DNA from: an uncultured Eubacteriales bacterium
GTDB taxonomy: Bacteria > Bacillota > Clostridia > Lachnospirales > Lachnospiraceae
DNA: 34,549 nt
Direction: 5' to 3'
NCBI GenBank assembly: GCA_900316715.1
Contig: ONEC01000022.1
Span: forward strand, 1-34,549
Shown: positions 5,984 through 34,252 of the stretch, one piece after another
How positions within the stretch are numbered: position 1 is the first letter of the stretch
Layout of the letters: every line of letters begins with the position of its first letter
Position numbers and translations under genes: made by a program
The notes under the pieces: model-generated
Seen by the model: the letters and a program-made list of their open reading frames with translations, nothing else
The model's database searches: none
What the model was told of the DNA's origin: nothing

Positions 5984-8143
5984 TTATGAAATCTGAGCCG
6001 TGAAAAGGTTGAAGTATATACCTTTTCGAGCCAGAAGTTCTTTATGTGTGCCTATCTCTGCTATATGATGGCCATCTATGACCATTATTCTATCAGCATT
6101 TTTAAGAGTAGACAACCTGTGGGCAATGGCAAATGTTGTTTTTCCGCTGGTCAGTCTTTCAAGTGCCTTCTGGATCATGAATTCACTTTCCGTATCCAGA
6201 CTGGCAGTAGCCTCGTCCAGAATAAGAAGCTTAGGATCCGGAAGTATGGCTCTCGCTATGGCTATACGCTGACGCTCGCCGCCGGAAAGGGTATAGCCCT
6301 TCTCACCTACATAAGTATTGTATCCGTCAGGAAGCTTACTTATGAAGTCATGGGCATTTGCAAGCTTTGCAGCTCTTATAATCTCGTCAATCGTAGCTTC
6401 AGGCTTCGAGAATCTGATGTTGTCGATGACCGTTCCCGAGAACAGGAATGTCTCCTGAAGTACAACACCTATCTGTGAATGATAAGACTTTCTGCTTACT
6501 TCCTTTAGGTCATTTCCATCTATAAGAAGTCTTCCGTCATCAATTTCATATAAGCCCATAAGCAGATTGATGAGCGTAGATTTACCGGTTCCCGATGCAC
6601 CTACGATGCCTATCATTTCACCCGGTTTTATGCAGGCGTTGATATCCTCAAGTACCGGCTGATAGGACTTATAACCAAAGGTTGCATGGTCAAATGTAAC
6701 CTCACCCTTAATATCTATATCCTTAACCTTTTCCGGTTCCTCAGGAACATCCTGAGCAAGTACATCATATATTCTTTCCAGGCAGCTTGTGAGTATTGAA
6801 ACCTCACGCGGTATTCTGTCCATCCATCCGATATACTGGAAAAGAAGTAATGTGTAGGATATAAACTGGTAGAGCTCACCTACTGACATCTCACCCTTAA
6901 ATACATTGCCTCCACCGAAGTAGACAACTATTACAACTCCGGCACCCATAAGGATATTCATGCAGAAATCGAAAAGCGCCCAGAACCTCTCATTTCTTCT
7001 CTGTACAAGAGCAAAACCGTTCGAAACATGCTTGAATCTCTTTGATTCTTCCTTCTCTTTACCGTAGGTCTTTACAACTCGCATACCGGATATAACATCC
7101 TGAAGCTCACTTGCCACGTCATCATTTTTTCTATACTGAAGATGGAATATCCTTTCAATAGTCTTCCTCATACAAAGAATGATCACCACGAGGATCGGCA
7201 CAGTTGAAAATGTCATAAGTGCCAGCTTCCAGTTGAGCATCAGCATAAAGATAACATCCCAGATAAATATGAAGAGTATAGCAAAAAGGTTGCAGAATAC
7301 ATCTTCCATGAATCCTCTTATGGACGTGGTATCCTGAATGATCCTGTTAAGAAGCTCTCCCGGTCTTCTGTCATTTATAAATTCCAGCGGCAGCTTCTGA
7401 TATTTCTCAAAGAGTGCAACCCTGAGATCCGCAGATATCCTCGCACCTATTCTCGCCGTCGCATTACTCTTCATAATATTCAATATTACTATAGTAACAC
7501 TGAGAGAGAACATGATGGAGAGAAATATAAGTGCACTCTTCAGGCTTCCGCCTTCCTTCAGAACGTCGTTGATAAGGTGCTTCTGGATCTCCGGATTAAG
7601 AAGTGTGGTAACTGCTACGAGTACCATGATAAAGAATACTCCCAGAAAATCCTTCTTATATGGCTTCGCCATCTTAAGGAATACGCTTATGAAGCCACCT
7701 TCTTTAGAGCACTTCGGGCACTGCTTTGTACCCGGAATAACCCGTCCGCACTTTGGACATATCTTCTCGTACTCACTGCTTTCAACCTCCTCATATCTTC
7801 CTGATATAAGAATATTCAGGCCTCGTGCTATATAAGCATATCTGCCTCTATGTTTAGCAGAATAATGAACCAGTACCTGATCCGCTCCATCACGTCTTCC
7901 GGTAAGAATACCTCCGCCGACTCCCGGCTCTGCTGTAATCTTCTCGAAATCGTGAATGTCTAATATTCTTTTTTCTTCTCCTCTGAATATATATATCTTC
8001 TTTGTGGTAACCACGAGATAGGAGTTGTCCGACCAATTCCCTTCTTCATCAATATCTACAGGAACCGCATAATATATCCTCTCATCTTCCGAAAGTTCCA
8101 CAGCCTTCTCTATATTATTCGGAAGTATATAACGTAATATCAT
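5984..8143 (-). CDS. ABC exporter half-transporter with N-terminal PH-like region and zinc knuckle
   Basis: A 719-residue fused membrane-ATPase exporter half. Residues 1-115 are beta-rich and resemble a bacterial PH-type domain (YLVVTTKKIYIFRG). A zinc knuckle follows (Cys129, Cys132, Cys142, Cys145), then about six membrane spans (roughly 165-430). The nucleotide-binding domain has Walker A GASGTGKST, signature LSGGERQ, Walker B with catalytic Glu in LLILDEATASLD, and a switch His in AIAHRLSTL. Type IV exporters work as dimers, and the partner is most likely the paralogue at 8739. The DUF1854 gene ends 19 bp upstream and the helicase starts 10 bp downstream. Cargo is unknown; the cytosolic extension and knuckle are unusual for a multidrug exporter. 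Confidence 0.88.
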   Translation of the reverse strand: MILRYILPNNIEKAVELSEDERIYYAVPVDIDEEGNWSDNSYLVVTTKKIYIFRGEEKRILDIHDFEKITAEPGVGGGILTGRRDGADQVLVHYSAKHRGRYAYIARGLNILISGRYEEVESSEYEKICPKCGRVIPGTKQCPKCSKEGGFISVFLKMAKPYKKDFLGVFFIMVLVAVTTLLNPEIQKHLINDVLKEGGSLKSALIFLSIMFSLSVTIVILNIMKSNATARIGARISADLRVALFEKYQKLPLEFINDRRPGELLNRIIQDTTSIRGFMEDVFCNLFAILFIFIWDVIFMLMLNWKLALMTFSTVPILVVIILCMRKTIERIFHLQYRKNDDVASELQDVISGMRVVKTYGKEKEESKRFKHVSNGFALVQRRNERFWALFDFCMNILMGAGVVIVVYFGGGNVFKGEMSVGELYQFISYTLLLFQYIGWMDRIPREVSILTSCLERIYDVLAQDVPEEPEKVKDIDIKGEVTFDHATFGYKSYQPVLEDINACIKPGEMIGIVGASGTGKSTLINLLMGLYEIDDGRLLIDGNDLKEVSRKSYHSQIGVVLQETFLFSGTVIDNIRFSKPEATIDEIIRAAKLANAHDFISKLPDGYNTYVGEKGYTLSGGERQRIAIARAILPDPKLLILDEATASLDTESEFMIQKALERLTSGKTTFAIAHRLSTLKNADRIMVIDGHHIAEIGTHKELLARKGIYFNLFTAQIS

Positions 8144-8162: not shown

Positions 8163-8717
8163 TTACAGAAACAGATCCAGCATTCTTCTTTCTTTATGTG
8201 ACAGCTCATCCACATCCTTTATCTCAAAACGGTTCTCATCCACATCACTTATAATAAGTCTTGTATCTGAGAGTTTTGCGACTGCATTTGAGCCCATATT
8301 TATTGAGAACTTACACTCACCCTTATCCGTCAGAACATGGAAATACGCATAACCGTATTCATCCTTTATGCTGTATATCTTCTTAATGACCGGAGTAAAA
8401 TAGCTAAGCCTCAGCTGCTTTTTAAGAATCTTTTTTGTTTCATCACTCATGCTGTCAAGGTCTTCGATTATACCGATCTCACGTTCTCCGTTTCCATGCT
8501 CTCTTATAGATAGAAATCTGTCAGCATCCGTAAACGGAAACAGTCTTACAACCTTGACACGATCATAGTGAATCCCATCATAGTCAAGGCTGACAAAACC
8601 GCCCTCGGTCTCTTCGAACTTATCATTCTTTGTAATTATATGTATCGCCGTCATTTCCTCGGCTTTTTTCTCATAAATGTTTAATGTGTTGTTTTGATTA
8701 TTTGAATTCTCTGCCAT
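8163..8717 (-). CDS. DUF1854 protein linked to ABC exporters
   Basis: A 184-residue soluble protein whose core (about 40-184) fits DUF1854, including the LRLSYFTPVIKKIYSIKDEYG and RLIISDVDENRFEI-type stretches. In other bacteria DUF1854 genes sit next to ABC exporters, and in some proteobacteria that pair is annotated with cyanophycin metabolism. Here the gene lies exactly between two ABC exporter halves (21 and 19 bp gaps, AGGAGGGG ribosome site). No cyanophycin synthetase or cyanophycinase occurs in the window. The tight sandwich suggests a subunit or regulator of the exporter pair. Its biochemical role is unknown. Confidence 0.72.
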   Translation of the reverse strand: MAENSNNQNNTLNIYEKKAEEMTAIHIITKNDKFEETEGGFVSLDYDGIHYDRVKVVRLFPFTDADRFLSIREHGNGEREIGIIEDLDSMSDETKKILKKQLRLSYFTPVIKKIYSIKDEYGYAYFHVLTDKGECKFSINMGSNAVAKLSDTRLIISDVDENRFEIKDVDELSHKERRMLDLFL

Positions 8718-8738: not shown

Positions 8739-11021
8739 CTAGAAATTAGTCTGAAGAGCCAGTGCCTTATTCTGAAGTTCAAGAAGACTTCTGTAGATTC
8801 CGTCCGGGATCTTATTCAGTTCATCTTCTGTTCCCTCTTCAACTATTCGGCCACCGTCAATAACTATCAGTCTGTCTGCGTCCCTGAGTGTTGATAATCT
8901 ATGTGCTATGGAAAGCGTTGTTCTTCCCTTCACCAGAAGCTTCAGTGAATTCTGAATAGCTTTCTCAGTCTCTGTATCAACGCTGGCTGTTGCCTCATCC
9001 AGGATCAGTATCTTCGGATCAGCAAGTATCGCTCTCGCTATGGAGATTCTCTGTTTCTCTCCTCCTGATAATTCCTTTCCTGATGCTCCGATTATGGTGT
9101 CATAGCCATCCGGAAGCTTTGATATAAAATCATGAGCGCTGGCCAGCTTGGCAGCTCTGATAATATCAGCTCTCGTTGCATTTTCATTTCCATAAGCGAT
9201 GTTCATCGCGACGGATCCCATGAAGATATAAGTATCCTGTGAGACCATGGCTACATTTCTTCTAAGATCTGCTAAAGCCAGATCCTTAACATCGTTTCCG
9301 TCTATTTTTATAGAACCCTCATTTACGTCATATAATCTGGAAATGAGATTAACAAGGGTGGACTTTCCTGCGCCGGAACGTCCTACTATTCCCAACATTT
9401 CACCTTCCCTGACCTTAAGATTAATGTTCTTAAGTACCGGGCGGCCTGCCTTATATCCAAAGGTTACATCCTTCAGTTCTATCTCACCGCGTGGCTTATC
9501 CAGCTTTATCGGTTCCTTCTTTTCCTGTATCTCAGGAATAGCATCGATTATCTCAAACAGACGCTCAGCTGAGTTGATACTGTCAGACCACATACGGAAT
9601 ACCCATGAGAAGAAGTTCATAGGTCCGTTAAGCTGCATAACATATCCGACGAAGGTTATAAGAACACCGAGGTCTATCTTATCTGTTTTGAGAACTAAAA
9701 ATACACCTGCTATCCATATCCATATGCTGGATATCTCCTGGACCATGTTATACATAATGGCAAAACGGTTTCTGAGGCGGACTATGTTGATCTCCGCTTC
9801 GCAGAGCTTCTCATTCGGATGCATGAACCTTTCTATTTCAGCACCTTCCTGTCCAAAGGCCTTCACTACTCTGGCTCCTGTAAGATTATCGTTGGCCTTG
9901 CTGGTAACCGCCTTCTCGGCACGATGTCTCTTGCCTGAAAGGGTCCAGAGACCAGGACGAAGCTTAACTGTCATAAAGACAAGAAGCGGCAGCAGTATGC
10001 AGGCCAGAAGAGCCATCTGCCAGTTAAGTCTGTACATAACTATAAAGGTTACTATTATGGTCATTCCATGTACGAATATCATAGGAAGACCATCTATAAA
10101 GAACTCTCTTACTCTTTCCGAGTCACTGAGAACTCTTGTCATGAGACCGCCAGTCTGCTTATTTGTAAAGAAGCTGAGAGACAGTCTGCTCATGGAATCA
10201 AATACATCTGTTTTAATGTCTCTTACAGCTGAGCTGGCAACCTTTGCCATAACAAATATCTGCAGCCAGCTTGTAACGGCGGCAATAAGTCTTGCACCTA
10301 TCATCACTAAAACGAGCATAAGGAGGGCCAGCGTATACTTCCCTCCTAATCCGAATCCTGAAAGATATACATCGTCCTTTTCAAGTACGTGGTCAAAAAG
10401 TACCTTACCTATAAGGTATGGCCACGCAATACTTACAACTGCTGTAAGGGTATATGTCAGACAGAGCACTACTATTTCCAGTCTGTATCTCAGGAAGTAC
10501 TTAAGAGTTCTGCCAAAGATGGAACGCTTGTTCTTCTTTTTAGAACTGCTTTCCTCTTCTTCCTCCTCTTCAGCTTCATGAACAGGTGTATCACCGTCCT
10601 TTACGAAGGATTTAAGCTGTCTGTAAAAGACGTTCATTTCCTCCTGAAATCTGTTCGTAAATGCTGCCAGCCTTAAGGCTTTTCCCTCATATTCTGCAGT
10701 CAGAATATTAGTATCTATGAAATGCTCAATATGTATATGTTTCAGCTTATCAATATTAAAGAATTGTATATCAAATGCTCCGCCATCTTCCAGAGACTCG
10801 TCCTCAGCTCTCTCAACACCTCTGAAGTAATAAACATGATCCTTCGGAAGTGCTTTCTGCATTACGCCGACAACCGACTTTGTCAGAATAATGAAACCCG
10901 AAATATATTCACTGTCAAATGAAAGGTCGATAGAGCTTTCAAGAAGAATGTCTTCCCGATCTACCCCATATTCCTTCAGCTGTCTCAGCGCTGCTTTTGA
11001 TAATTTACTGTCCTGCTTCAA
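8739..11021 (-). CDS. ABC exporter half-transporter with N-terminal PH-like region
   Basis: A fused exporter half of 760 residues from the TTG start at 11021. I prefer this start because AAAAGGAG lies 8 nt upstream; an in-frame ATG at 11045 has no ribosome site. Residues 1-145 are a soluble beta-rich region with SGFIILTKSVVGVM. A Glu/Lys-rich linker follows, then about six membrane spans. The ATPase domain has Walker A GRSGAGKST, signature LSGGEKQ, Walker B with Glu in ILILDEATASVD, and a SIAHRLSTL switch His. Both this and the downstream half keep the catalytic Glu, so neither site is visibly degenerate. It follows the XRE gene by 78 bp (54 bp if ATG is used) and precedes DUF1854. Confidence 0.87.
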   Translation of the reverse strand: MKQDSKLSKAALRQLKEYGVDREDILLESSIDLSFDSEYISGFIILTKSVVGVMQKALPKDHVYYFRGVERAEDESLEDGGAFDIQFFNIDKLKHIHIEHFIDTNILTAEYEGKALRLAAFTNRFQEEMNVFYRQLKSFVKDGDTPVHEAEEEEEEESSSKKKNKRSIFGRTLKYFLRYRLEIVVLCLTYTLTAVVSIAWPYLIGKVLFDHVLEKDDVYLSGFGLGGKYTLALLMLVLVMIGARLIAAVTSWLQIFVMAKVASSAVRDIKTDVFDSMSRLSLSFFTNKQTGGLMTRVLSDSERVREFFIDGLPMIFVHGMTIIVTFIVMYRLNWQMALLACILLPLLVFMTVKLRPGLWTLSGKRHRAEKAVTSKANDNLTGARVVKAFGQEGAEIERFMHPNEKLCEAEINIVRLRNRFAIMYNMVQEISSIWIWIAGVFLVLKTDKIDLGVLITFVGYVMQLNGPMNFFSWVFRMWSDSINSAERLFEIIDAIPEIQEKKEPIKLDKPRGEIELKDVTFGYKAGRPVLKNINLKVREGEMLGIVGRSGAGKSTLVNLISRLYDVNEGSIKIDGNDVKDLALADLRRNVAMVSQDTYIFMGSVAMNIAYGNENATRADIIRAAKLASAHDFISKLPDGYDTIIGASGKELSGGEKQRISIARAILADPKILILDEATASVDTETEKAIQNSLKLLVKGRTTLSIAHRLSTLRDADRLIVIDGGRIVEEGTEDELNKIPDGIYRSLLELQNKALALQTNF

Positions 11022-11055
11022 AGTTCTGTCTCCTTTTCTAGTCATTCATAAGATT

Positions 11056-11099: not shown

Positions 11100-11360
11100 T
11101 TAAGCCGTCCTTCTTGATACATCCGAAGCCTCAAGCACGATTATCTCGTCCATAGATACTCCGAATATGTTTGCTAGTACGACCAGGTTGTCAATTGTTG
11201 GAAGCGCAACACCCCTCTGCCACTTGTAGATAGCCTGTGGTGTTGTGAATCCAAATATGTTCTGCAGATCTGCTACTGACAGACCTGCTGTCTTGCGAAG
11301 TACAGTTATCTTTCTGCCTGTACCCACTGTGTCAATCATTGGCATCATATACTCATGCAT
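11100..11360 (-). CDS. XRE-family helix-turn-helix regulator
   Basis: An 86-residue DNA-binding protein. The single Cro/C1-type HTH covers about residues 14-75: KITVLRKTAGLSVADLQNIF, then FTTPQAIYKWQRG as turn and recognition helix, then LPTIDNLVVLANIFGVSMDEI. A longer reading frame extends upstream, but its extra residues fall on the terminator hairpin. The ATG at 11360 has GGAGGGG 7 nt before it, so I use that start. It is the first full-length gene after the attenuator at 11388-11427 and lies directly ahead of the ABC/DUF1854 genes, which it probably regulates together with its own promoter. No sensor domain is attached. Confidence 0.88.
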   Translation of the reverse strand: MHEYMMPMIDTVGTGRKITVLRKTAGLSVADLQNIFGFTTPQAIYKWQRGVALPTIDNLVVLANIFGVSMDEIIVLEASDVSRRTA

Positions 11361-11387: not shown

Positions 11388-11427
11388 AAATAAAAAACCG
11401 CTCATCTTCGCATGCAAGATAAGCGGT
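11388..11427 (-). terminator. Intrinsic terminator/attenuator ahead of the XRE gene
   Basis: On the minus strand, arms ACCGCTTATCTT (11416-11427) and AAGATGAGCGGT (11397-11408) pair over 12 bp with one G-U around a 7-nt loop. They are followed by TTTTTTATTTTG. The terminator lies between the 45-codon leader ORF and the XRE ribosome site, so it controls read-through into the XRE/ABC genes. Confidence 0.88.
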
Positions 11428-11512
11428 ATACCTTCAAAGTATCATGAGTAATGAGACAACTTTAATTTAGCAGCCGTCCCCCTTTACGCTGAAAACGCTT
11501 ATCTTATATGCA
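11409..11512 (-). promoter_or_regulatory. Predicted antiterminator pairing (attenuation element)
   Basis: The RNA from 11512-11496, inside the leader ORF (third base of codon 31 to first base of codon 37), can pair with the RNA from 11425-11409. That second stretch is most of the terminator 5' arm plus its loop. I count 16 of 17 positions paired, with two G-U pairs, one A-C mismatch and an uninterrupted 10-bp AAGATAAGCG/CGCTTATCTT core. The two structures exclude each other. A ribosome moving freely over codons 31-37 would favour termination, and one stalled upstream would favour read-through. The pairing is read from sequence; the mechanism is inferred. Confidence 0.72.
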
Positions 11513-11604
11513 CACAACAAATCATGGTAATCACCTGTGATAGTTGTAGGTGTCACCTCTGTTCTAATCTTATTAACATTTGTAATTATTGTAGTTGTGA
11601 ACAT
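11467..11604 (-). CDS. 45-codon Thr/Ile-rich leader ORF
   Basis: A short frame at 11604-11467 starts with ATG behind AAAGGAAAAGAT and ends in TAA. The 45-residue product begins MFTTTIITNVNKIRTEVTPT and ends VKGDGC. Nine residues are Thr and five Ile, clustered in codons 3-8 and 18-23, which recalls amino-acid-sensing leader peptides such as ThrL. It is too long for a minimal leader but close to BmrB of Bacillus subtilis, whose translation controls an ABC exporter pair by attenuation. The distal codons overlap the antiterminator strand. It might also be a small functional protein. A dedicated promoter, ribosome site and downstream attenuator make it a credible translated ORF. Confidence 0.7.
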   Translation of the reverse strand: MFTTTIITNVNKIRTEVTPTTITGDYHDLLCAYKISVFSVKGDGC

Positions 11605-11618
11605 ATCTTTTCCTTTCC

Positions 11619-11637
11619 GGGGTTTACTACGCACCCC
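11619..11637 (-). other. Leader hairpin just upstream of the 45-codon ORF
   Basis: Arms GGGGT and ACCCC enclose a 9-nt loop and end immediately before the AAAGG ribosome site. It may tune translation of the leader ORF. Confidence 0.4.
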
Positions 11638-11662: not shown

Positions 11663-11691
11663 AGAATAACATAAGTTTCCTTATTTGTCAT
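11663..11691 (-). promoter_or_regulatory. Sigma-A promoter of the leader ORF-XRE-ABC unit
   Basis: On the minus strand, -35 ATGACA (11686-11691) and -10 TATTCT (11663-11668) are spaced by 17 bp. Transcription would start near 11656, about 50 nt before the leader ORF. Confidence 0.6.
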
Positions 11692-11707
11692 TATACCAGT
11701 GGTATAA
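11691..11707. promoter_or_regulatory. Perfect palindromic operator candidate
   Basis: TTATACCAGTGGTATAA has 8-base arms around a single central base and abuts the -35 hexamer of the promoter at 11663-11691. The encoded XRE protein is the natural candidate to bind it as a dimer. An operator just upstream of -35 suits either activation or repression. Confidence 0.55.
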
Positions 11708-32915: not shown

Positions 32916-34055
32916 CTAATTATTTCCACCAGCCTTATAATTATACACCGGCTTAATAATCTTATCAATTTTGACTGTGTCCTTAATTACTTCCGCAATA
33001 TCATCAATCTTTCTGTAAGCAAAAGGACTCTCATCCAGCGTATCCTTGTTGATGCAGATAGAATAGATTCCATCCATTGCTTTCTTAAAGTCCGATACTG
33101 TATGATGTTCAGCCACTTCGCTTCGTCTATAGATTCTTCCGGCACCATGTGGCGCTGACTGGTTCCAGTCCGGATTGCCCAGACCTGTTCCGAGAATTAT
33201 TCCGTCTCTCATATTGATCGGGATGATAACCTTCTCTCCTGCCCGTGCACTTATGGCTCCTTTTCTGAGCACCGGACGTGCTGAATCTGTGAAGTCAACG
33301 TAGTTATGAATACAGGTAAAACTATCTTCTATCTTCCACTTCATACCCTTTGTTATGGAATCGATGATTGCTTCTCTGTTAAGGCGGGCAAAATCCTGAA
33401 TAATTTCTATGTCATGCAGATAGTCTTCCATAAGCTGTCCTGTGAGGCATGTCATCTCATAGGATGCATAACCCTGTTTCTTCATCTGCATTTCCTTCTG
33501 GCCGGCTCTGAGATAATAATCAGCCACCTCCATTCCAAGATGTCTGCTTCCGGAATGAATCACCAGGTATACATTTCCATCATCATCCTTATCAACCTCT
33601 ATGAAATGATTGCCGCCGCCAAGGGTACCGATACTTCTGTTAGCTTTACGCGCATCTATTCCCTTATAGCATCTCAGCTGTTCTAAATCTATTCTGTCTG
33701 CATATTTATGCTCCTTCTCTCTGATTCTCGGACCAACAGGAACTTCATTTCTTATCACGCTGTCAAGCTGCTGAAACTGCAGTCCCTTTGTCTTAACCTT
33801 TGCCATGGTCATACCGCATCCGATATCTACTCCTACCAGGCTTGGAAGTATGGAATCACCCACTGTCATTGTGAGGCCGATGGTTCCGACCTTTCCCGGA
33901 TGCACATCCGGCATAACTCTTATAACACTTCCCTCAGAACTCGGGTGATTGCATATCATCTGAAGCTGCTTTCTTGCATAGTCTTCCAATGCATACAATT
34001 CATTTTCAACTGTATATACTATAGCGTTTGTATATTTTCCATATATTGTTATCAT
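32916..34055 (-). CDS. rtcB: RtcB-family 3'-phosphate RNA ligase
   Basis: RtcB joins RNA 2',3'-cyclic phosphate or 3'-phosphate ends to 5'-OH ends with GTP and manganese, repairing cut tRNA or rRNA. From ATG 34055 the protein has 379 residues, somewhat shorter than E. coli RtcB (408). All key positions are visible: Asp77 and Cys80 (GVDIGCGM), Asn149-His150 (GGGNHFIEV), His167 (HSGSRH), His250 (CIHNYVD), and the guanylylated His303 (APHGAGR). GGAGGAA precedes the ATG; a GTG five codons upstream lies on that site. The ATG overlaps the stop of the small Cys-rich gene (ATGA), implying translational coupling. No archease or PrfH gene is nearby. Confidence 0.93.
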   Translation of the reverse strand: MITIYGKYTNAIVYTVENELYALEDYARKQLQMICNHPSSEGSVIRVMPDVHPGKVGTIGLTMTVGDSILPSLVGVDIGCGMTMAKVKTKGLQFQQLDSVIRNEVPVGPRIREKEHKYADRIDLEQLRCYKGIDARKANRSIGTLGGGNHFIEVDKDDDGNVYLVIHSGSRHLGMEVADYYLRAGQKEMQMKKQGYASYEMTCLTGQLMEDYLHDIEIIQDFARLNREAIIDSITKGMKWKIEDSFTCIHNYVDFTDSARPVLRKGAISARAGEKVIIPINMRDGIILGTGLGNPDWNQSAPHGAGRIYRRSEVAEHHTVSDFKKAMDGIYSICINKDTLDESPFAYRKIDDIAEVIKDTVKIDKIIKPVYNYKAGGNN

Positions 34056-34252
34056 ATATAATTCCTCCACTGATCGTGCCTGTCCTTATCCTTCTGTCTC
34101 TTATTCCGTATGGATTCTTTCTTCTCCGAGCTCTTTCTCGGCTGATACTTCGGACAGTTCTTACACTTCTTTAAATCTACTTTTACATATCCCTTTTTAC
34201 AGTCTGCATCTTTACAAACGTAGTAAATGCATGGCGCTGTTCTATCTTTCAT
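34052..34252 (-). CDS. Small Cys-rich basic protein coupled to rtcB
   Basis: I do not recognise a named family. The start at 34252 follows TTAAGGGAG. The 66-residue product has Cys8, Cys13, Cys18, Cys30 and Cys33, the last pair as KKCKNCPKY, which suggests one bound zinc. Residues 39-60 form a strongly charged, mostly basic tail (RKSSEKKESIRNKRQKDK) suited to nucleic acid contact. Its stop overlaps the rtcB start by 4 bp, so equal expression and perhaps joint function with the ligase are likely. The terminator at 34283-34328 lies in its leader, so expression depends on read-through. The RNA-binding role is inference. Confidence 0.75.
   Translation of the reverse strand: MKDRTAPCIYYVCKDADCKKGYVKVDLKKCKNCPKYQPRKSSEKKESIRNKRQKDKDRHDQWRNYI

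Follow-up and report, generated by a model that had tools for sequence, protein, structure and literature searches.

Which signal could be read by a short, threonine-rich reading frame that stands, together with a terminator hairpin, ahead of a small XRE regulator gene and an ABC exporter operon? The question is raised by the window, i.e., the whole stretch of 34,549 nucleotides from an uncultured Lachnospiraceae bacterium that was analysed, for which a preliminary description had proposed a leader ORF controlling the downstream genes by mutually exclusive RNA helices, with ThrL and BmrB as possible parallels. The answer given below is built on the leader region itself, on its counterparts in related genomes and on the tRNA genes that accompany many of these counterparts.

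The leader region of the window and its alternative helices

In the order of the minus strand, the region is composed of the following elements, from the putative promoter to the last exporter gene:

11691..11707, minus strand: palindrome TTATACCAcTGGTATAA, the probable operator of the XRE protein (presumed binding), with 0 mismatches to the searched pattern
11663..11691, minus strand: promoter-like hexamers ATGACA / TATTCT, spacing 17, with TG before the second hexamer
11619..11637, minus strand: 5' UTR hairpin GGGG...CCCC, immediately upstream of the Shine-Dalgarno sequence
11611..11618, minus strand: Shine-Dalgarno sequence GGAAAGGA, read directly before the leader ORF
11467..11604, minus strand: leader ORF of 45 codons plus stop, with its ATG at 11604 and its stop ending at 11467
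11581..11607, minus strand: strand 1, the start-codon region, which pairs with strand 2 in the anti-antiterminator helix 1:2
11536..11598, minus strand: putative sensor codons 3-23, Thr-rich (7 ACA, 2 ACT), with Ile second
11505..11535, minus strand: part of strand 2 that pairs with strand 1, codons 24-33
11496..11512, minus strand: antiterminator part of strand 2, TGCATATAAGATAAGCG, codons 31-37, which pairs with the terminator 5' arm
11397..11427, minus strand: intrinsic terminator hairpin of 12 pairs with a loop of 7, followed by a T tract
11100..11360, minus strand: XRE/HTH_3 regulator of 86 aa (Pfam HTH_3)
8739..11045, minus strand: ABC exporter half 1 (ABC_membrane and ABC_tran)
8163..8717, minus strand: DUF1854 protein (Pfam PF08909, 126 bits)
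5984..8143, minus strand: ABC exporter half 2 (profile matches)

The leader ORF would encode the peptide MFTTTIITNVNKIRTEVTPTTITGDYHDLLCAYKISVFSVKGDGC, which has no Pfam or NCBIfam match. Both the 45-codon ORF and the 12-bp terminator of the preliminary description are borne out on the minus strand, and so is the pairing it had claimed for codons 31-37 with the terminator 5' arm: positions 11512-11496 face positions 11425-11409 over 17 positions with one mismatch, a length reached by only 3 of 5000 dinucleotide-shuffled ORFs. The gapped duplex energy of this antiterminator, -19.2 kcal/mol, is less extreme, being equalled by 41 of 5000 shuffles. Taken alone, the terminator hairpin is unremarkable, since terminator-like sites number 2 per 3 kb against 1.4 expected in shuffles. 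The whole leader RNA is more stably folded than its shuffles (z -2.45). The richness in Thr and Ile noted earlier at codons 3-8 and 18-23 is likewise correct, Thr accounting for 9 of the 26 residues of the front part, all encoded by the ACA and ACT codons listed above. This is the strongest single-residue bias among 63 related leaders, with p = 2.9e-5 for one test, which becomes p ~0.04 once corrected for 63 leaders and 20 residues; the second-strongest is a Met bias in a leader (L227) sited before tRNA-Met.

Not noticed in the preliminary description were helix 1:2, the hairpin of the 5' UTR, the palindrome (11707-11691) as a probable operator overlapping the promoter, and the occurrence of rtcB and tRNA genes behind related leaders. 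In the minimum-energy fold, the start-codon region is paired with codons 29-33, a helix which the duplex prediction widens to codons 24-33. With this helix, the classical 1:2 / 2:3 / 3:4 set of an attenuator is complete. In 52 of 60 units, the Shine-Dalgarno sequence is preceded by a 5' hairpin with 4 pairs or more (mean 4.67 versus 3.04 in shuffles), and a Shine-Dalgarno sequence identical to or resembling GGAAAGGA occurs before many related leaders. The promoter hexamers show 9 of 12 matches, and sites this good are common by chance. The palindrome touches the hexamer pair, precedes rtcB, tRNA and XRE units in relatives as well, and ATGACAAAT is found again beside it there. The downstream regulator matches HTH_3 and other Cro/C1-type models, and it probably acts on the promoter palindrome as a second control, at initiation, in a probably negative manner.

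A leader family in Lachnospiraceae

The leader peptide is a poor guide to relatives. When searched against 299 family genomes, it gave a good match only in its own genome; of the other 11 matches, spread over ten genomes with E 0.011-0.094, seven fall within long frames and four contain stops, and they look like chance. The family was reached through its DNA architecture instead of the peptide search. Relatives of the XRE protein occur in 111 of 250 family genomes (E <= 1e-8), and among 30 of these loci that were read, the ORF list gives an rtcB frame upstream in 16 and downstream in one. The operator pattern, with up to 2 mismatches, was found at 102 places in 79 of the 299 genomes, as compared with about 50 matches of the reversed pattern used as a control. 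Because the reversed pattern also matches, the analysis rests on operators with at most one mismatch and on their context. Sixty places were fetched, 50 with at most one mismatch (the window's own apart) and 10 with two. Within 2.5 kb of the 50, rtcB is present at 21, an XRE gene at 37 and tRNA genes at 20; at least one of the three occurs at 40 places and none at 10. A leader with a good Shine-Dalgarno sequence is present at 34 of the 50 and absent at 16. The layout of the family is thus a palindromic operator, a promoter, a leader ORF and a terminator, followed by rtcB, tRNA genes and/or a small XRE gene.

Further fetching brought the collection to 63 leader units, three of which (L207m, L329m and L330p) were judged false and dropped; a later rule-based scan of more loci listed 70 distinct leaders, and in 21 cases tRNA genes came immediately after the leader. 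Clustering at a pairwise score above 40% of the self score, with one representative retained per cluster, divided the 63 leaders into 46 clusters, the peptides being widely different and varied in residue composition. At the class level, the operator with at most one mismatch was found in 4 of 293 genomes, namely the window's own and three others with one mismatch each, so that the family seems to be centred on Lachnospiraceae.

In spite of this diversity of the peptides, the two alternative helices are retained. The absence of covariation in relatives had been named beforehand as a possible refutation of the attenuator; covariation was examined and is present, cognate leader-terminator pairs surpass mixed ones and the upstream helix covaries, so that ribosome-mediated attenuation is well supported by comparison. 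For helix 2:3, the ORF ends of the 44 representatives bind their own terminator arm at a mean of -15.16 kcal/mol, versus -12.71 +/- 0.36 when the partners are permuted (0 of 20000 permutations), and the control pairing of the ORF front with the terminator gives a weak effect (415 of 20000). Compared with dinucleotide shuffles at the 5% level, the ORF end is significant in 23 of the 44 representatives, 21 missing the level, and the ORF front in 3 of 40. Four units (L272m, L156m, L256m and L198m), for which the scan had chosen a wrong hairpin, were left out of the terminator test. For helix 1:2, from which leaders below 120 nt were excluded (41 of 44 kept), the values are -15.05 versus -11.86 +/- 0.42 (0 of 20000), with a weaker effect for the control pairing of the ORF middle with strand 2 (184 of 20000). 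Among 14 leaders of the genus alone, helix 1:2 is equalled in 1 of 20000 permutations and the ORF-middle control in 868 of 20000.

A fixed-register test was restricted to the 8 genus leaders possessing an AYK-type anchor, seven of which are independent since the window and genome G306 are nearly identical. In columns 4-14, 69 of 88 cells pair, against a permuted mean of 57 (0 of 5000), and sliding the register by one base reduces the number to 24 of 88, by two bases to 52 and 48 of 88. Changes on both sides are seen in column 7 (A-U/G-C), column 9 (A-U/G-C), column 10 (A-U/U-A/U-G) and column 11 (C-G/A-U), and in none of these is more than one leader unpaired. No pairing is seen in column 5, column 12 pairs in 4 of 8 leaders, and helix 1:2 is weak in some leaders, e.g., L239 (-5.9).

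Several variations of the family organization deserve mention. Successive tRNA arrays with XRE genes between them occur at L192, L243 and L326 (G260:C175, G234:C50), the G260:C175 stretch listing 16 tRNA genes in 4.9 kb behind one operator. At L194 (1987-3096 of the oriented stretch), a second RtcB-family gene follows rtcB-XRE. A related form of the operator, such as TTATACTACAAGTTCAATGACA, is grouped in G290:C6, G288:C36, G450:C1 and G004:C44; where read, such operators mostly lack a leader and several lie near other small XRE genes, and they possibly belong to a sister regulator family.

Leader residues, downstream tRNAs and a proposed reading of the switch

The relationship between a leader and the genes behind it becomes apparent when tRNA genes are involved. 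A strict set comprises 13 representatives with tRNAs chained directly behind the leader and with a Shine-Dalgarno score of 4 or more, a rule that omits L192, and the null distribution was obtained by dealing out the tRNA sets among the leaders. Residues corresponding to the encoded tRNAs show an excess of 32.2 versus 7.4 +/- 5.7 (0 of 50000 permutations) within the first 62% of the leader; within the last 38%, where the antiterminator strand lies, the excess is 2.2 versus 0.4 +/- 2.8 (12849 of 50000). All 26 of the 26 encoded amino acids are present in the first part; as 21 of 26 are also present in the last part, presence by itself is weak evidence and the argument depends on the excess. A less strict set (16 representatives), in which five units (L193, L198, L217, L227 and L230) were restored or corrected with their tRNAs, gives 61.0 versus 8.8 +/- 8.7 (0 of 20000) in the first part and 6058 of 20000 in the last; the tRNA sets of the corrected units extend past the XRE gene there, and those of L192 and L243 even beyond a possible following unit.

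Individual leaders illustrate this correspondence. The Met/Arg-rich leader of L227, with MRSTMMMREMNMRRLTAYARSM, precedes tRNAs Met and Met, an XRE gene, and tRNAs Arg and Arg; that of L233, with NYCFNQISQQSALFCKSQQGFKF (Phe/Ile/Ser/Lys/Cys/Gln), precedes tRNAs Phe, Ile, Ser, Lys and Cys, an XRE gene, and tRNAs Gln and Gln; and that of L239, with SASLYSKEWSL, precedes tRNAs Ser, Lys, Trp and Leu. Outside the strict set, the leader of L192, with VLSSSYVLYLSLLLYGS, precedes one Tyr, four Leu and two Ser tRNAs, and the Leu/Ser/Tyr leaders of L192, L243 and L355, though placed in separate clusters, probably form one lineage. The codon boxes used for Ser and Leu agree with the encoded anticodons in 22 cases and disagree in 18, hence no signal, and no Arg case qualified.

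Since the front codons of relatives match their downstream tRNAs, the Thr-rich front of the window leader should report Thr-tRNA. The likeness to ThrL drawn in the preliminary description is upheld indirectly in this way, but no thr biosynthetic genes lie downstream. The window sensor has no encoded tRNA for comparison because the window contains no tRNA genes, and no Thr-linked gene was recognised in it either. We consider it likely that the leader is a ribosome-mediated transcription attenuator of the trp/thr type, belonging to a Lachnospiraceae family whose codons report the supply of particular aminoacyl-tRNAs. As the codons in front of the antiterminator strand over-represent the amino acids carried by the downstream tRNAs, the family would most likely sense the loss or uncharging of particular tRNAs, and the window copy would probably be a Thr-tRNA reporter rewired to an exporter.

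According to this proposal, helix 1:2 would form in an untranslated RNA and the terminator would halt transcription. A smoothly running ribosome would mask strand 2 during synthesis of the terminator, and again transcription would stop. A ribosome waiting on the Thr codons within codons 3-23 would be 8 or more codons short of codon 31, block or disturb strand 1 and leave codons 31-37 free to capture the terminator 5' arm, with read-through into the XRE, ABC, DUF1854 and ABC genes as the predicted outcome, and the XRE protein on the promoter palindrome would add a second control at initiation. The weak point of this mechanism lies at the stop codon: the antiterminator strand is located about 9 codons ahead of it, a ribosome at the stop leaves codons 31-37 uncovered and would not mask strand 2, and the burden therefore falls on timing or on helix 1:2. 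Relatives would use this switch ahead of rtcB and spare tRNA genes, which is why the family most likely responds to tRNAs that are damaged or lost (or uncharged), and in the window the output would have turned into an exporter. A more extended proposal, to which we give slightly more belief than doubt, is that the leader peptide spells out the amino acids served by those tRNAs that its operon can replace, so that destruction of one of these tRNAs by nucleases or toxins would halt the ribosome at the corresponding codons and call up spare tRNAs and the RtcB ligase; the sensor would be re-addressed by codon change, and the window copy would have been re-addressed to Thr and rewired to an exporter removing the damaging agent.

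Other readings of the same elements have to be weighed against the tRNA-reporting attenuator. In a general sensor of translation stress or drugs, of the BmrB kind, any slowed ribosome would lead to read-through, the exporter would expel a ribosome-targeting compound and the Thr codons would be incidental. As the preliminary description had stated, a leader and a terminator are present ahead of the ABC exporter genes as they are ahead of bmrCD, with an XRE gene in between. According to PMC4191407, the signal for bmrBCD of Bacillus subtilis consists of ribosome-targeting drugs, and a leader peptide and a terminator stand before its ABC exporter genes in the arrangement found here with two ABC halves. 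The varied composition of the family leaders is also in keeping with such a sensor, as is an rtcB/tRNA regulon which elsewhere answers translation inhibitors (PMC10272220). The window differs from bmrBCD by its Thr-rich leader, which belongs to a tRNA-matched family, and by an XRE gene coming first in the operon; a strong match of front residues to tRNAs, limited to one part of the leader, is not expected of a non-specific sensor, and this reading appears unlikely.

The control could also reside mainly in the XRE protein bound to the promoter palindrome, the leader ORF being a relic or a minor fine-tuner. The operator does lie beside an XRE gene at 37 of the 50 places, and some operators stand directly before an XRE gene with no leader (L223, L285), but a relic would not keep two alternative helices that have co-evolved across highly divergent leaders, which renders such a view quite improbable. 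Still more improbable, to the point of being hardly credible, is an ORF encoding a functional small protein or peptide signal, with RNA structures arising as a by-product of conserved codons: the motif [R/C][A/S][Y/F/W]K[I/V/M][S/R] near the end of many leaders would suit it, but this motif coincides with the antiterminator strand and changes in step with the terminator, the peptides being otherwise as diverse as their clustering indicates and that of the window matching no Pfam or NCBIfam model. As for other RNA devices, no T-box, riboswitch or other Rfam family reaches its gathering score in the window, where four permissive hits correspond to eukaryotic families below their gathering scores, and the Rfam scan of 15 related loci gave only tRNA.

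The exporter, its relatives and known systems

With respect to its identity, the exporter is not the cyanophycin-associated ABC/DUF1854 system, as its ABC halves score 545.5 and 521.8 against a cut-off of 880 (NF052233) and its DUF1854 protein 83.7 against 150 (NF052234). Among the best 80 of 120 genome loci with relatives of ABC half 1, both the XRE gene and the operator (at most one mismatch) occur at a single locus, L014, from Lachnospiraceae bacterium UBA2864; 9 of the 80 loci have less than 700 bases upstream, so that about 71 could show either element. The attenuator as a general trait of the ABC operon is thus unsupported. The leader of this only close relative (L014/G306) is in frame and differs from that of the window by 15 bases; codons 24-36 are unchanged, 9 of the 13 changed codons are nonsynonymous, and 2 of the 9 window Thr codons read Ser. 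A search of 61 genomes of the genus yielded the G306 copy and several two-part matches covering the promoter and the terminator only, which, when read further, proved to be leaders of the same design before other genes, i.e., an XRE gene and then a protein of about 681 aa (G350, G327 and G322), or rtcB-XRE (G302 and G326).

The 681-aa protein recurs in the genus behind XRE or rtcB-XRE, with copies at L154 (3938-5983), L155, L158, L284, L296, L297 and L299, the L154 copy being the one scanned. It is weakly MXAN_6230/SCO0854 RING-like; in G350 it has no Pfam match and a sub-threshold match to the MXAN_6230/SCO0854 family. The window's own genome contains two RtcB-family genes, neither of them behind the window leader. 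The rtcB gene on contig C184 has no operator in the 4.1 kb read around it, and the second gene, located in the window at 32916-34070 on the minus strand, is not behind the operator either. The product of the latter shares 42% identity with the rtcB product of the leader family, its nearest NCBIfam models PRK09588 and TIGR03073 stay under their cut-offs, and we label it RtcB2-like.

Attenuators of the thr and trp operons of E. coli (thrL, trpL) carry codons for the sensed residue in a leader ORF followed by an intrinsic terminator. The present family resembles them in its sensed-residue codons, its 1:2, 2:3 and 3:4 alternatives and its intrinsic terminator, and differs from them in that the leaders often carry codons for several encoded tRNAs and that biosynthetic genes are replaced downstream by XRE and ABC-DUF1854-ABC in the window and by rtcB and tRNA genes in relatives. 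The trp attenuator is also described in PMC4191407. The TrcR regulon of Anabaena, as presented in PMC10272220, brings rtcB together with an exporter operon and an array of spare tRNAs, all relieved under translation stress, which suggests by analogy that the export of a damaging compound may be a natural third arm of a response to tRNA damage. TrcR is a ribbon-helix-helix repressor, whereas the window regulator belongs to HTH_3, and the main text of PMC10272220 is devoid of the words "attenuat-" and "leader". In Salmonella, according to PMC7790460, rsr-yrlBA-rtcBA is governed by RtcR, a CARF-domain activator that binds tRNA fragments; RtcB expression answers tRNA damage there, as it probably would in the present family, whereas here a leader ribosome would sense the missing tRNA. 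Among the titles and abstract openings listed by searches of the PMC literature, which mostly excludes subscription papers and bioRxiv preprints, there was no attenuator controlling tRNA genes or rtcB. The attenuator device is known, and its targets and the codon-list logic are absent from the literature searched.

If the tRNA-reporting attenuator is the right reading, bacteria would detect when an individual tRNA is lost, a condition different from amino-acid starvation, through a list of leader codons, and would answer with the matching spare tRNAs and a repair ligase. Such a device would be a modular sensor that registers the action of anticodon nucleases and of toxins related to them, and the leaders would be readable records of the tRNAs under attack in each species. 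The uncharacterised ABC-DUF1854-ABC exporter would, in turn, be predicted to protect against an agent depleting Thr-tRNA. In a separate observation, the L298 / L279 leader (G341) contains an Ile-Asp-Arg repeat, IDGIDRIDRIERL, which suggests that the sensor codons of a leader can expand by short repeats.
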